Shown: one piece after another, positions 13,065 through 21,584 of the stretch
How the letters are laid out: the number at the start of each line of letters is the position of its first letter
How positions within the stretch are numbered: the first letter of the stretch is position 1
NCBI GenBank assembly: GCA_018262975.1
Contig: JADFDG010000021.1
Location: forward strand, 1 to 50,434
Reading direction: 5' to 3'
Origin: Gammaproteobacteria bacterium
Lineage (GTDB): Bacteria > Pseudomonadota > Gammaproteobacteria > Pseudomonadales > JADFDG01
DNA length: 50,434 nucleotides
Notes under the pieces: model-generated
What the model was told of the DNA's origin: nothing
The model's database searches: none
What the model saw: the letters and a program-made list of their open reading frames with translations, nothing else
Translations under genes and position numbers: made by a program

Positions 13065-14936
<1,872 letters not shown>

Positions 14937-14943
14937 GCGTCAG

Positions 14944-17900
14944 TCAACCGCGACGGCGGCGCCGGGCGATCGCCAGCAGCAGCGGCGCCAGGAAATAGAC
15001 ACCGGTGCCGCCCAGGAAGTCGATACCGAGAATGTCGCTGAGGTCATCGTCGCCGAGGATCGCGCCGCCGTTGCCCGTCGGACGATCAATCGTCAGGGTG
15101 ACAGTGGCCGTGGTTTCGCGACGCAGCGACAGGCACTCCTGGTAGGCCGCATAGAGCGGGTCGGTGACCGGCACCTCTACACAACCGTTACGGTCCTTGA
15201 CCGAATAGGTAAAGGTCTCGCCGAACGGGTTAAAGGTGTTGTAGGGCGTCCAGCGCATGTCACCGGTCACACTGTCCAGTACCAGGCGCCCGAACTCGCA
15301 CTCGAAGGTACCGGGCTCGCCGTCAACCTCATCGCAACCAGTGACGGTGAGCGTGGACGGATCAAGGCCGTTGTTGGCCATGATGGTGGCATCGTAGTCC
15401 TCGTCGTTGTCGAGCACGTTGAACACTGCCACCTGCCCGACGCCGACCACCACCAGGTCGTTGCGCGCCACCGGCGGCACGTTGAGGACCGCGACCTCGA
15501 CATCGGTCTGGTTCGAGACTACGCCGCCTTCGGTGTATACCTCGTAATCAAGCGTGCGCAATCCACCGGATGTATCACCGCTGGCCAGCACGCCACCACT
15601 GTCGTAGCGAATCACGTAACCCGGCGCAAGCATCGCCGGCGTGACCGCGGTTACGCGGGCGAGCTCGGCGGCTTCGCTGTCGGTGCCGCTCCAGCCGGCG
15701 ACGAAGTCCTCCGGGAAATCTCCATTGAGATACGCGGCCGGTACCCGGTCGACGGTGATGTCGTCTTCGGCGGGAATATCGAGGATGACACGCAGGTCAT
15801 CCAGATCGTCCTTGCGCAGGAAATCGATGGTATCCGTGGGGGTGCCGGGGTAGACGACAACGCAGGGGTCGCCCGCGAGGTCGGTATAGCGAACCTGCGG
15901 TGCCGCCGACAGGTCGAGCAGCGTGCAGTCGCGCTTGATCGGGTCGATCGAGTCGAAAACGTCGTTGGCGAGCACATCGACCATCACCAGGCGATCACGA
16001 CGGTTCGTGTTGCTGGCGTTGTCGGACACCGCGGTGACCTGTACGTGCTCGAAGGCACCCTGGTCGCAGCGACCACCGGACTCCCTGCTGCCACCGCGCT
16101 GGTCGATCGTGGCGCAGGCATTGCTGGCGCGGGTCAGGGCATCCACCAGGACTGCCGGGTTGCCGCGATCGATGATGAAACCGGCGACGGCAAGCGCCTG
16201 CGGGTCATTGAAGCCGTGGGTCTGCGTGCTGCCGCCATTGTCGGCCAGCGGCGCCAGGTACGCAGCGGAAGTGCCGTCGTACACATCGGTGTCCAGCGCG
16301 TAGAGGTTGGCCGCGCCGACCGGCCCGATGGGACAGGTGGCATCCGCGAGCATCTCGCCATACAGGTTATAGGTCGCCGCGGCATTGCCGGCGCCGCAAT
16401 TCGCATCAAGCACGCCGGCGGCAGCACGGTTGGCCGCCACGATGCTGTTGGAGAGCGTGGTGGTGGCACCGCCAGCGCTGAACTCGATGGCGGCCCGCTG
16501 CACGGCGGGCGAGGCATAGGTATCGACGCCGGAGAGGTTGTCGACCACGGTGAGGTTGCGCAGCGTGGCGCCGCTGGTTGCACCGGACAGGTCCAGTGCT
16601 CCGGAACCGGCGGTACTCTCGTTGCCACTGAATGTCGAGTTGGCGATCACCACCTCGCTGGCAGTCTTGATCGCGAGCACGGCCGCCTGCGCCGCGGACC
16701 GGTTGTTGATGAAGGTGGAACCCGACACCCGCACGACGTGGCGGCCGGACGCGCTCATGGCCACCGCGCCACCACCGGAATCGTTGATGCCGGTACTGCT
16801 ATTGCCGTCAAAAAGGGAGTTGGTCACGACCAGGTTGCTGTTACTCCCCAGCAGGTAAATGGCCCCGCCAGCACGCGCGGAATTGTTGCGAAGCACCGAG
16901 TCACTGATGGACACGCCGCCGATGGAGTTGATGGCCCCGCCGTCATTGGTTCCGGCATCACCGTTCTCCAGCACCATGCGCTGGATGACGATACTGCCGC
17001 GGCTGTTGATCAACGGGAAAGCCGGGCCAGTTGCGCTTCGGCTGATCGTACAAGTGACCGGACTGTTCTCCGGGCAGCGGATGGTGACACCACCCCAGGC
17101 GTCGAGCGTGGCGTTGAGCGTCACCTGCGAAACCGGCACACCATCTTTATCGCGCGCGAACTCGATGATGTCAGGACCCTCGTTGCCATCGAGGCAGTCA
17201 CCCAGCGTCAGGTTGGCCTGGTCGTTGCGGGCCGTGGAGAGCGCTTCGCGCAACGTGCAAAAGCCATCACCGGGGTTCTCGACCGGGATACCGGACGCGT
17301 TGACCGGGTCGAGGCCGGAGTTCACGTAGATGATGTTCTCGACTGCTTGCGCCGGCAGCCCGGCCAGCAACAACAGGCCCGCGCACAGGGCTGGACGCAG
17401 GCGGCGTACACGGCCGCGCAGGCCGAGCAACGCCACGGCGAGCAGCCACCAAGGTCCCGCTGCGCCGCCGATGCTGCTGCTGGTGATGCCGCCGGCACTC
17501 TCGGTGTTGACGTGGGCAATGCCGCTCAGGGTGCCACGCACGGTAGTCCCGGTTGCGACCTCGTCCGTCTGCCAGCCGGCGGCGTAAGTGACGTTCGTTT
17601 CACCGCGGAACCCGGGCACCGGCGTGAACAGGATGGCCTCGTGCAAACCGGCGGCAGCGAGGTCGCGGCAGGTCTGCGGCAGCGCAGGGTCATTGATATC
17701 CACCACGTTTGCACCCGGGTGACGGTCGAGGTACTCAACAGGATCGGAACTGGCAATGACCACCTGCGTGCCGGCACGCTCGATGCGAACGATCTCCAGC
17801 GAGTAACGCGTGTACCAGGCGTCCCCGATATCGTTGGCGAGCACGTCCAGGCAGGCCGTCTCGTTGACGAGGATGGTCAGGCGATCGTCCTTGCGCCGGC

Positions 17901-19593
17901 CGATCTGGTATTCCATGGCACCGATATCGCAATCGCTGTCGATGGCGGACGCGCGCTCGCGGTTGGCCTGGTCCGTCGCAGCACAGGAAGCGGACTGCTG
18001 CGAACCCGCACCGCGATTGACCAGGCGGTTCTCGGTGAGGGACAGCACGTCCACGGGGTAGCGCGGAATGTACGCGCCCAGGTCGGCATCGAGGGTCTGC
18101 ACCAGCCAGGTCCAGACTGTCTGGCCGGCAGGCAACTCGAAGTTGGTATTCGCGGGCGCCAGCAGATCGTCGTAGCGCAGGCCGGGGCAGCCAGTGGCCG
18201 CCGTGGCGTAGTAGTTGTGCAGGAAGTTGGCGTCGTCGACCGTCACGGCAGTGAAATCACAGTCGGCGGTACCGGCGGGACCGCCACCGGTATTGCCGGC
18301 GAGCAGGCTGTTGTAGACCGTCGCGGCATCGGCGGCGACCAGTTGCAGGCCGCCGGTACCATTCGCCGCGGTATTGTCGATCATGGTGACGTTGTTGAGC
18401 GCCAACGTGCCCCCGCCCACATCGACCTGGACGGTGGCGCGGTCACCGGCAACGTTCTCGCCGAACGTCGCGTTGGTGATCGTCACGACGCTGCCATTGC
18501 CGAGCGCATGGACGGCCGACCCGGCAAGTGCCTGGTTGTCGACCACGCTTGCACGCAGGATCGTCAGCGCACCTCCGATATTGGCGGGCGTGAAACTGAC
18601 TGCGCCACCGGCAGTGCCGGCGACGTTGCCCTGACCACCGGATTTGCCCAGCACCACGTCGGTCAGCGAAACGGTACCGCCTGCCGATGCGATGGCACCT
18701 CCTGCCGCCGCAGCCGTATTGGCGGTGAAGCGGCCGCCTTCGACTGTCAGCGCGCCATTCACCTCGACGTATATAGCACCACCATGGGTTGCCAGGTTGC
18801 CCTCGAGGGACACCTTGGCCAACTGCCCGCTGCCGGACAGCAGCAGCGCGCCCCCGTTGCCGGCACCGGCATTGCCGCCGGACAACAACAACGACTTGAA
18901 CTCGACGGTATAGCCTTCAGTAACGCTGAACAGGCGACTGGCGCCACTCGTGGTCACGACCGAGCCGTCACCGACACCAACAATGGTGACGTTGACGGCC
19001 ACCGGCACTTCGCCGCGCAAGGCATCGAGGGTATGGACGCCCTCGCGCAGGATCACCGAGTCGAACGATGTGCCGTCATCACAGCCATCGACCTCGTTGT
19101 CGGCTGCGAGGCGGTCCAGTTCGCCCTGGTTGGCCACCAGCGTGCGCTCGATCAGGTCGATGGTTTGCTCGACATCGTCAAGATAGACCTTCTCGTCGGG
19201 CAGCGCCTCGATGTCAGCGACCTGCGCGGCCACGTCGGCGATCAGCACCGTGTCCTGGTCCAGCAGGTCATAGGATGCGAGTTCTTCGCCGAGCAGCTCC
19301 AGTATCTGCAGGACAGTGCCGCGCGGATAGTACTGATTGGGGAACTGCAGGCGCTCGATGTTCTCCGGATCGGCTATGTCGTCGAGGTAGGCCTCGATAC
19401 GATTGCGGCTGTTTTCGCGGGCATTCAGCCGCGCGGCCCGCTCGGAGGCGGCCACCGCCTCCCGGATGGAGCACAACCCGTCGCCGTCGACGGACTCGCC
19501 GAACGTCGTGACCTCGATGGACGCCGCGCCGGCAAATGGCACGACCGAACACAGTGCCACCAAGGCCAGGATACGAGCCCGCAACCGCTTCAT
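14944..19593 (-). CDS. Tandem CSLREA / beta-helix protein with two GlyGly-CTERM-like signals (fused)
   Basis: A 1549-residue secreted protein built from two similar halves. Half one has a signal peptide (1-24), a CSLREA-type box with Cys41 (LCSIREAV), beta-helix repeats of the GGAI type, a DIGAMEYQ choice-of-anchor Q motif, then a DRLTILVN..VLANDI domain. It ends in a GlyGly-CTERM-like tail: GG at 709-710, a hydrophobic helix (715-725) and basic GRVRR. Directly after, 734-750 looks like a new signal peptide ending PAQA. Half two has Cys779 (FCTLREAL), beta-helix repeats, DQGAFEH, a DRLVMVDVLANDV domain, another cadherin/Ig-like stretch and a final tail FLAPLLLAIARRRRRG. No stop separates the halves. 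GAGGA precedes ATG 19593. The function is unknown; surface display or release by rhombosortase is the family expectation. Confidence 0.82.
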   Translation of the reverse strand: MKRLRARILALVALCSVVPFAGAASIEVTTFGESVDGDGLCSIREAVAASERAARLNARENSRNRIEAYLDDIADPENIERLQFPNQYYPRGTVLQILELLGEELASYDLLDQDTVLIADVAAQVADIEALPDEKVYLDDVEQTIDLIERTLVANQGELDRLAADNEVDGCDDGTSFDSVILREGVHTLDALRGEVPVAVNVTIVGVGDGSVVTTSGASRLFSVTEGYTVEFKSLLLSGGNAGAGNGGALLLSGSGQLAKVSLEGNLATHGGAIYVEVNGALTVEGGRFTANTAAAAGGAIASAGGTVSLTDVVLGKSGGQGNVAGTAGGAVSFTPANIGGALTILRASVVDNQALAGSAVHALGNGSVVTITNATFGENVAGDRATVQVDVGGGTLALNNVTMIDNTAANGTGGLQLVAADAATVYNSLLAGNTGGGPAGTADCDFTAVTVDDANFLHNYYATAATGCPGLRYDDLLAPANTNFELPAGQTVWTWLVQTLDADLGAYIPRYPVDVLSLTENRLVNRGAGSQQSASCAATDQANRERASAIDSDCDIGAMEYQIGRRKDDRLTILVNETACLDVLANDIGDAWYTRYSLEIVRIERAGTQVVIASSDPVEYLDRHPGANVVDINDPALPQTCRDLAAAGLHEAILFTPVPGFRGETNVTYAAGWQTDEVATGTTVRGTLSGIAHVNTESAGGITSSSIGGAAGPWWLLAVALLGLRGRVRRLRPALCAGLLLLAGLPAQAVENIIYVNSGLDPVNASGIPVENPGDGFCTLREALSTARNDQANLTLGDCLDGNEGPDIIEFARDKDGVPVSQVTLNATLDAWGGVTIRCPENSPVTCTISRSATGPAFPLINSRGSIVIQRMVLENGDAGTNDGGAINSIGGVSISDSVLRNNSARAGGAIYLLGSNSNLVVTNSLFDGNSSTGINDSGGGAVAMSASGRHVVRVSGSTFINNRSAAQAAVLAIKTASEVVIANSTFSGNESTAGSGALDLSGATSGATLRNLTVVDNLSGVDTYASPAVQRAAIEFSAGGATTTLSNSIVAANRAAAGVLDANCGAGNAAATYNLYGEMLADATCPIGPVGAANLYALDTDVYDGTSAAYLAPLADNGGSTQTHGFNDPQALAVAGFIIDRGNPAVLVDALTRASNACATIDQRGGSRESGGRCDQGAFEHVQVTAVSDNASNTNRRDRLVMVDVLANDVFDSIDPIKRDCTLLDLSAAPQVRYTDLAGDPCVVVYPGTPTDTIDFLRKDDLDDLRVILDIPAEDDITVDRVPAAYLNGDFPEDFVAGWSGTDSEAAELARVTAVTPAMLAPGYVIRYDSGGVLASGDTSGGLRTLDYEVYTEGGVVSNQTDVEVAVLNVPPVARNDLVVVGVGQVAVFNVLDNDEDYDATIMANNGLDPSTLTVTGCDEVDGEPGTFECEFGRLVLDSVTGDMRWTPYNTFNPFGETFTYSVKDRNGCVEVPVTDPLYAAYQECLSLRRETTATVTLTIDRPTGNGGAILGDDDLSDILGIDFLGGTGVYFLAPLLLAIARRRRRG

Positions 19594-19803
19594 CAGGTGT
19601 TCCTCGAGAGTCACGGCTGGTCCCCGCGCGGGGGTGCCGCCTGCTTGTTGTTCTTCGTTGTTCTGCTTGTGGAGCCGGTGCCGCCCCAGTCGGGCAGCGG
19701 ACACCCGAAAACTGCGCACGATGGACGCAGGTTTCCCGCCGGGCAGTTTATCGTTCGCGCGGCGACGCCTAGTGTTGGACTTTTGTTAAGTCCCGGCAAG
19801 GAG

Positions 19804-20535
19804 TTACCGCTCGCCCCGCGACCACGCCGGCGGGTTGTCGGCAGCCAGCACCTGGCGCACGAATGGCAGCGTCAGCCGACGCTGGTGGACCAACGCCTCG
19901 CGGTCGAGTCGCGCCAGCAGTGCGACCAGGTCATCGAGGCGGCGGCTGGCCCTGGCCAGCAGGTAGCGCCCCGCATCGCCCGGCAGTTCGAGCCCGCGCC
20001 GTGCCGCACGGAACGTCAGGATGGCCAGCCGCTCGTCGTCGTCCGGCGTGCGCAGGCCTATGGCCAGGCCGGAACCCAGTCGCGAGCGCAGGTCGGCCAG
20101 GCGGATCGGCAATTGCGCGGGTGGCACCGCGGCGCTGACCGCCAGGCAGGCGCCACGTGCGCGCAGCTGGTTAAAAAGATGGAATATGGCCTCTTCCCAG
20201 CGGGCATCACCGGCGATCATGTCGACATCATCAAGACAAACGACACTCACCGCATCCCCCACCCCGTCCAGGGCCTCGAGCGGCGGCCGGCAGCCCGCCG
20301 CCAGCGGCATCCACAGCACCGGCGCACCGCGCCGGGCCGCGGCATCGGCGACCGCCTCGAGCAGGTGCGAGCGCCCGGAACCGGGCGCCCCCCACAGGTA
20401 GATGAACGATTCGCGCCCGTCGAGCAGGGCCTCGACCGCGGCCAGCGCTTCCGGGTTGCCGTCGGCCAGGAAGTTCTCGAGTGTGTTGCCGTCGCGCAGA
20501 CCGACCGGCAGCGGCAGCTGCCCGCTCATGGTCAT
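19804..20535 (-). CDS. hda: DnaA regulatory inactivator Hda
   Basis: A 243-residue AAA+ protein that, bound to the DNA polymerase clamp, stimulates ATP hydrolysis by DnaA and so limits re-initiation. The N-terminal clamp-binding motif QLPLPV (residues 6-11) is present. WGAPGSGRSHLLEA is the P-loop region and VVCLDDVDMI the Walker B. The DNA-binding domain IV of DnaA is missing, as expected. The start ATG at 20535 overlaps the stop of the upstream DUF2066 gene by 4 bases (ATGA); an internal ATG at 20529 is also possible. The pair DUF2066-hda divergent from purM matches the order in Pseudomonas. Confidence 0.93.
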   Translation of the reverse strand: MTMSGQLPLPVGLRDGNTLENFLADGNPEALAAVEALLDGRESFIYLWGAPGSGRSHLLEAVADAAARRGAPVLWMPLAAGCRPPLEALDGVGDAVSVVCLDDVDMIAGDARWEEAIFHLFNQLRARGACLAVSAAVPPAQLPIRLADLRSRLGSGLAIGLRTPDDDERLAILTFRAARRGLELPGDAGRYLLARASRRLDDLVALLARLDREALVHQRRLTLPFVRQVLAADNPPAWSRGER

Positions 20536-21584
20536 GGCGTGGCCGTGGTCCAGCCGGCCTCGATGACGGTCGTGGTGTCTTCCACCACCGGCTCGCCGCC
20601 CACCGTGAGCCGGCCGTCGGTGGCCATGGCCTGGCGGAAACGCTCGATGCTGCCGGCCAGCGTCAGCATGAAGACCCGTTCGCGCGGACCGACTTCGACC
20701 AGCACGAGGTCCTTGACCAGCGGCAGGCCCGCCAGCCAGCGCTCCAGCGCCGCGTGGTCCTCCAGCGAGCCGATGCCGGCCACGCGCAGGCGTACCGCCT
20801 GCAACTGGTCGGGGCGGGCCACCATCGCGTAGCGGGCACCCAGGCGATCGGCCGCCACCTGCACGAGCTCGCGCAGCGCGGCGCCTTCGTCTGCCCCGGC
20901 CGCCTCGATGCGCTCGGCCACGCCCTCGATGGACAGCACGCCCGCCGCACGATGGCGCCCGCCGTTACCCGTCACCGCGGCGGCCAGCACCGCGCGCGCG
21001 CCGGCCCGGGTCGCGGCATCCGCCACCGCCGGCGGCACCGTCGCCAGCGGCGCGTCTGTCACGGGCACTTCGCCGGCTGCCGGCAGCAACGCCGGCAGTC
21101 CGCGCGCGCCCGCAGCCTCGAGCAGGACGTCGGCGGCCGGCGTACCGAACCCGAGCAGGCTGCGTCCGCCGCCACCCTCGCGCACCACCCACAGATAGAC
21201 CGGCGGACGACTCGCGCCCCACACCGGCGCACCGGCCCGGTTGAGGATGGCGCGCACGCTGGCCGGGTGGAAGGACAGGCGCAGCAACAGCGGCGCGCTG
21301 CCGCCCGGCCGGGGCTGCGACTCGTACTTGAACGAGCCCAGCAAGGCGTCACCCTTGCCCAGTTCCGCCTGCAGCGCCGGCAACGCCAGCACCGAGCGCT
21401 GGCCACTGGCCTTCACCAGCACTTGCCGGAAACCTTCCTGCACGGCCCGCGCCCGCTCGCCCGCGCCCTGCCCGCTCACCGGCACCGCCGCATCGAAGAG
21501 GCCACCGACATCGGCCGCCCGTGCCGCCACCCCGGGCAGGCAAAGACAGAGCAGCAGGGGCGCCAGGCGCAGCAGGGCATTCAT
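20532..21584 (-). CDS. DUF2066 secreted protein
   Basis: A 350-residue protein of unknown function with a clear signal peptide ([21 protein letters not shown], cleavage near ARA-A), so it is periplasmic or envelope-associated. The body fits DUF2066: [16 protein letters not shown] near the N-terminus and [11 protein letters not shown] in the middle. ATG 21584 is chosen because the signal peptide starts there; the upstream open frame only reads through REP repeats. It is coupled to hda by a 4-base overlap and divergent from purM, an arrangement conserved in gammaproteobacteria. Confidence 0.87.

Follow-up and report, generated by a model that had tools for sequence, protein, structure and literature searches.

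The window, that is, the whole stretch of 50,434 nucleotides that was analysed, contains on its minus strand a gene in which two related passengers, A and B, are read as a single frame of 1549 codons with zero internal stops, as judged from the open reading frame and its translation. The open frame extends from 14944 to 19719, and its likely start is the ATG at 19593 (Table 1). Each half contains a signal peptide, a CSLREA-type box (CSIREA, CTLREA), a beta-helix, a D-x-G-A-x-E motif, and a VLAND stretch; this common order of elements, noticed in an earlier sequence-only reading of the DNA, is seen again in the sequence and in the family matches. NCBIfam models match the CSLREA box, choice-of-anchor Q and, below threshold, rhombotarget A, and Pfam models match a right-handed beta helix and a bacterial Ig domain. 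At the inner junction, GG occupies residues 709–710 within SIGGAAG (from residue 707), a hydrophobic run begins at P714, and GRVRR spans residues 727–731. The position first given for GG stands, but the second signal peptide begins nearer residue 732 than 734; mature B is predicted to begin at V751. In a hydropathy scan of the protein, the N-terminal signal peptide and the C-terminal helix (at 1524) stand out, as do runs at 708 and 732 and an extra run of similar score at 1378, within the Ig-like part of B; with a hydropathy of 1.54 versus 1.58 for this extra run, the inner helix is no more hydrophobic than a segment inside B. Residues ∼43–165 of the A half (19100–19470) form a mostly helical insert that is absent from most of nine aligned relatives. 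An open frame of 2064 residues on the plus strand (14638–20832) runs antisense across the entire joined gene and is probably a by-product of high G+C content.

Table 1. Features of the joined gene and its upstream neighbour (window coordinates).
Feature	Position	Strand	Details and basis
Whole joined gene	14944..19593	-	1549 aa + stop; joined state in 31 further genomes
First signal peptide, residues 1-23	19525..19593	-	AGA/AS site placed by eye; sequence, hydropathy
First passenger A, residues 24-700	17494..19524	-	Rhombotarget-A-like beta-helix and VLAND stretch; TIGR04212 match below cut-off, profile and fold matches to 9cdu
Internal rhombosortase-type tail, residues 701-731	17401..17493	-	ITSSSIGG, membrane helix, GRVRR; sequence, hydropathy; pattern in 32/32 joined genes
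Internal signal peptide LRPALCAGLLLLAGLPAQA, residues 732-750	17344..17400	-	Signal peptidase I-type site AQA/VEN; sequence, -1 conservation
Second passenger B, residues 751-1520	15034..17343	-	Paralogue of A; hhalign of A against B, fold match to 9cdu
Final GlyGly-CTERM-like tail, residues 1521-1549	14947..15033	-	GG, helix, RRRRR; sequence; TIGR03501 8.6 bits, below cut-off
hda, upstream neighbour	19804..20535	-	Synteny only, outside the product; TIGR03420 245 bits

The joined gene occurs in 32 genomes: the study genome, 28 of 46 genomes of Alcanivoracaceae (family f43), and three genomes of genus g146 in family f35. Carriers include Alcanivorax jadensis T9 and A. hongdengensis, and three of them are single-contig assemblies (G385, G391, and G398). 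The observation of two GlyGly-CTERM-type proteins joined in frame, with an internal tail and signal peptide, is therefore confirmed, the inner arrangement recurring in 31 other genomes. Within the 46 Alcanivoracaceae, A and B share one frame in 28 genomes (in one of these, G415, the frame breaks off behind the junction), the gene is in pieces in one, and 17 are without it; these 17 include all 13 genomes of genus g43, and two of those have weak partial matches only. The fragmented case (locus L165, genome G408) has its pieces in different frames in a draft of 150 contigs, which reflects either decay or assembly error, and it was excluded from the counts as broken. The search for relatives covered 56 genomes, all from families other than that of the study genome. 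With the joined profile, 390 genomes of the order (E up to 1e-8, two candidates scored per genome) yielded no full-length matches outside the study genome and Alcanivoracaceae, and a class-wide search of 369 genomes (E up to 1e-15, two candidates scored per genome) yielded full-length matches in the study genome and Alcanivoracaceae only.

In family f35 the same two parts are adjacent genes with a stop between them, and both frames were recovered for 29 pairs from 29 genomes; one further split locus, L220, was dropped when its A frame was not recovered by the filter. The family is taken to be Moraxellaceae because high-scoring Rhombotarget A genes, known from Acinetobacter, occur in it. Comparison with relatives, which the sequence-only reading had proposed as a check, thus does find the halves as separate genes. 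A stop or frameshift between the halves in all relatives, which that reading had named as a sign of misassembly, is not what is found: the stop is present in the split pairs of f35, and none occurs in the 31 other joined genomes. The best-supported B start touches or overlaps the A stop in 13 of 28 split pairs. A relative of Hda adjoins A in all 19 named joined loci and in 30 of 34 f35 loci, so that this looks like one locus seen either split or joined; since the same locus occurs in both states, the effect of joining is directly testable. At two joined loci, L149 (genome G352) and L073, the junction loop has nearly 40 residues and contains an inner ATG, possibly representing an intermediate between the joined and split states.

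The relation between the halves was assessed with profiles of 20 A and 20 B halves, comprising the study gene and 19 joined loci among 77 loci. The two profiles align (hhalign) with an E-value of 2.5e-45 over 401 columns at 22% identity, and because the identity is this low the halves are considered old paralogues rather than products of a fresh duplication. In a tree of 122 rows, 61 for each half, one change separates A from B; the divergence of A from B therefore predates joining, and a fresh tandem duplication is rejected. The tandem duplication first proposed does not hold as a recent event, and what is seen are two old paralogues that came to share a single frame. By sequence, the A profile finds the solved structure of Rhombotarget A, 9cdu, with an E-value of 1.6e-32, and the B profile does not reach 9cdu, its sole strong match being 7w5z, a long chain of another kind. 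The AlphaFold models of both halves have 9cdu as their best PDB match (E-values 2.5e-6 for A and 5.4e-6 for B), with TM-scores by target of 0.50 and 0.55, respectively; these AF2 models are of moderate quality, with mean pLDDT of 64 for A and 60 for B and high values in the beta-helix only. The lack of structural similarity between the halves that the sequence-only reading had named as an argument against the arrangement is accordingly not observed, as judged from the hhalign result and from the common best fold match.

Rhombotarget A (RbtA) of Acinetobacter baumannii is known from structures 9CDU and 9CDV (PMC12643943). Its beta-helix, besides being the best fold match of A and B, is the fold predicted by the models for both halves; it also has a GlyGly-type tail, the A profile matches it by sequence, and the f35 genes that score above the cut-off of the RbtA family model TIGR04212 adjoin hda, as does the joined gene. 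The study protein scores 50.9 bits with this model, below the curated cut-off of 295, and is therefore filed as a relative of RbtA and not as a member. RbtA is moreover one separate protein with a C-terminal tail, whereas here the RbtA relative is followed in frame by its paralogue.

On a concatenated tree of the 61 A/B pairs, two changes are required to account for the joined state, the first for the study gene together with Alcanivoracaceae and the other for genus g146, which lies among split genera; the study protein itself sits on a long branch. An AU test, performed on 30 chosen rows of the 61 and with a simpler model, rejects a single joined clade (p-AU 1e-52), so that the state must have changed at least twice. 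Two independent joinings are the simplest account. The trees are unrooted, and an early joining with later splits may instead have occurred. We infer nevertheless that the direction of change was joining rather than splitting, and the most likely origin of the joined gene is the joining of an old, translation-coupled gene pair.

The joined gene probably encodes a polyprotein that rhombosortase and signal peptidase I would cut to give two surface proteins in equal number. In the proposed mechanism, SecYEG would export A under the direction of the first signal peptide; transfer would be halted by the inner GlyGly tail, leaving an arginine-rich loop of ∼9 residues in the cytoplasm, and the inner signal peptide would restart export, now of B, which ends in a tail of its own. 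Signal peptidase I cleavage after AQA (residue 750) would free the N-terminus of B, and rhombosortase cleavage of both the inner and the final tail would take A and B off the inner membrane. Type II secretion would probably then carry them to the cell surface, the ratio of A to B being fixed at 1:1. The topology, the two cuts, the surface location, and the ratio are predicted, and the separation of the products by proteolysis is suggested by the conserved signal peptidase-type site in particular. The earlier proposal that one translation product would yield two exported proteins if a rhombosortase recognises the inner site is strengthened in that 31 other genomes share the joined state, the halves are separate genes in another family, start signals are lost while processing signals are kept, and the study genome encodes a rhombosortase; the inner cut itself is a prediction. 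Separate proteins corresponding to the parts occur in relatives, as the 29 split pairs demonstrate. The joined gene probably works like a polyprotein and is not a standard GlyGly-CTERM protein, because its inner tail lacks the C-terminal position and, in the study gene, the curated score.

The signals that would free B are well kept. With the start of mature B placed in the 32 joined genes by a motif derived from the junctions, on which the counts depend, the inner −1 residue is A in 30, S in one, and G in one, and the −3 residue is A, V, T, L, S or G in all 32. Over 36 columns and 28 rows (four near-duplicates dropped; the anchor residues, I at +2 and V at +4, are each present in 24 of the 28), the entropy is lowest at −1 (0.44 bit), and −3 (1.68) is next lowest among positions −24 to −1. 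The loop between the two helices carries a net charge of at least +3 in all 32 joined genes and of +5 in the study gene. Because the study protein is only 26–28% identical to the nine first-aligned relatives, retention of these inner signals is not mere recency. Pooled pN/pS over 10 author-chosen pairs is 0.29 for the tail, 0.40 for the signal peptide, and 0.17 elsewhere, values that are rough since pS exceeds 0.5 in most pairs and synonymous sites are near saturation; on this measure the junction shows purifying selection, weaker than in the rest of the gene.

In all 32 joined genes the inner tail shows, in this order, one or more G, a helix, and a basic loop (SIGG in the study gene). A GG dipeptide is present in 21 of 32 inner tails, compared with 21 of 29 tails of split A relatives and 20 of 31 final tails, and is thus absent from 11, eight, and 11, respectively. 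With the curated TIGR03501 cut-off of 15.5 bits, the inner and final tails of the study gene (10.9 and 8.6 bits) both fall below, and neither was among the matches of a whole-genome search with this model at E up to 1. Two of the 10 inner tails tested (of 32) exceed the cut-off, at 18.1 and 17.4 bits, and none of 10 final tails does. Some inner and final tails exceed the cut-offs of the MYXO-CTERM or LPXTG models, so the short tail models do not settle which protease acts.

The rhombosortase that the sequence-only reading suggested looking for elsewhere in the genome is present, with 134 bits against a cut-off of 84, a GISG motif, and a later His. Rhombosortase is found in 29 of the 32 joined genomes (the study genome, 27 of 28 Alcanivoracaceae, and one of three g146) and was not found in the drafts G395, G441, and G431, of 70–220 contigs. 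As 16 of 17 Alcanivoracaceae without the joined gene also have a rhombosortase, its co-occurrence in this family says little; G390, G397, and the 13 genomes of g43 are Alcanivoracaceae that keep rhombosortase without the joined gene. In f35 rhombosortase is present in 30 of 33 genomes with the pair versus one of six without (Fisher p 5e-4), the six having been hand-picked from 89 genomes without a match. The study genome has four other TIGR03501 matches above the cut-off (such a match occurs also in one of 14 control genomes), and it encodes a type II secretin scoring 548 bits against a cut-off of 351.

The inner tail therefore has the order of motif, helix, and basic residues of a GlyGly-CTERM signal and a rhombosortase in the same genome; we infer that it would be cut by this enzyme. 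It is not at the extreme C-terminus, however, as 818 residues follow R731. Haft and Varghese (2011) suggest that an extreme C-terminal place may help distinguish rhombosortase substrates from those of other rhomboids (PMC3237569), a suggestion that counts against processing of an internal tail. According to a 2026 study of Vibrio, the GlyGly-CTERM tag works when moved to the end of another protein, and grafting it onto HapA gives RssP-dependent partial retention in the cell (PMC13393428). It is conceivable that only signal peptidase I cuts, the inner tail being no rhombosortase substrate and A staying anchored in the inner membrane, and this half-processed state would fit with −1 and −3 being the best conserved inner signal, with the inner tails that have no GG, with the sub-cut-off score of the study tail, and with the three joined genomes in which rhombosortase was not detected. 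It is nevertheless unlikely, because the inner tails match genuine C-terminal ones in their charge, in their hydrophobicity, and in how often they have GG, two of those tested pass the curated cut-off, and split A relatives carry the same tail type at a true C-terminus; the conservation of an inner tail so close to these speaks for release of A as well.

Even less probable is a single uncut chain of A and B held in the inner membrane by a hairpin of the two inner helices. The loop in the study gene is short enough for the helices to pair, and the cuts are deduced from sequence motifs. Such a hairpin would need no A-x-A site, however, yet −1 is A, G or S throughout these diverged proteins, a conservation that argues against it, and in f35 the parts are separate proteins with their own signal peptides and tails.

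Separate production of B by initiation inside the joined frame, which would make joining without consequence, is highly improbable. Before B, 26 of 28 split pairs have a start codon in frame that is backed by a Shine-Dalgarno match of at least 4, but only three of the 32 joined genes do (Fisher p 2.5e-11), the zones searched being −6 to +40 bases from the A stop in split pairs and 45 to 16 residues before mature B in joined genes. Those three genes could in principle initiate B internally, and the inner ATG in the long loop of G352 may also be cited, although it has no Shine-Dalgarno match; the study gene, which has no such start by a consensus scan, and 28 others are without these signals, which rules out internal initiation as a general route. 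That the joined frame is an assembly artefact or a stop lost in one strain can practically be discounted: the source is a draft of 29 contigs, but the 32 carriers, three of them single-contig, belong to two lineages, and an assembly error is thereby refuted.

With the polyprotein as the preferred reading, the arrangement can be compared with known systems. Bradyrhizobium fbcH, the cytochrome b/c1 precursor, is likewise one bacterial frame with an internal signal sequence, which signal peptidase cuts to give two proteins; it differs in having no sorting tail and no rhomboid protease, and its products are respiratory subunits of the inner membrane. Viral envelope polyproteins share the order of elements, with an internal signal peptide coming after a stop-transfer helix, whereas here the protein is bacterial and the first cut would be made by an intramembrane rhomboid. 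Position at the protein end is what defines C-terminal sorting tags (GlyGly-, PEP-, MYXO-CTERM, and LPXTG). The inner tail resembles those of GlyGly-CTERM/rhombosortase substrates (TIGR03501/TIGR03902; VesB) in motif, helix, basic residues, and the presence of a rhombosortase gene, but the described tails are at the extreme C-terminus and this one lies inside the chain, ahead of a signal peptide. An internal GlyGly-CTERM-type tail with a following signal peptide was not found in the literature searched. For the internal signal peptide fbcH is a precedent, so that the earlier statement that no bacterial polyprotein of this design is known holds only for the internal sorting tail.

On the whole we favour the fuller account, in which a "C-terminal" tag lying inside the chain is processed by an intramembrane sorting protease and the signal peptide behind it by signal peptidase, so that one translation gives two surface proteins at 1:1; this arrangement would have evolved twice by joining a coupled gene pair, and GlyGly tails would therefore not need to sit at the protein end. 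If this is true, rhombosortase can act on a tail even when a long chain follows it, and the gene is a natural bacterial two-protein polyprotein for which an equal dose of two paired surface proteins is a testable reason.

Three further frames were noted during the searches. One, 1464 residues long and from another genome of the class, has two B-like matches, and L256 (G899:C9:9655-12822), which covers part of it, shows no inner helix pair by hydropathy. In the study genome, the B part of the joined profile matches C26:137144-137632 within a frame of 975 residues, and a GlyGly-CTERM match lies at C10:8352-8408 in a frame of 1503 residues.
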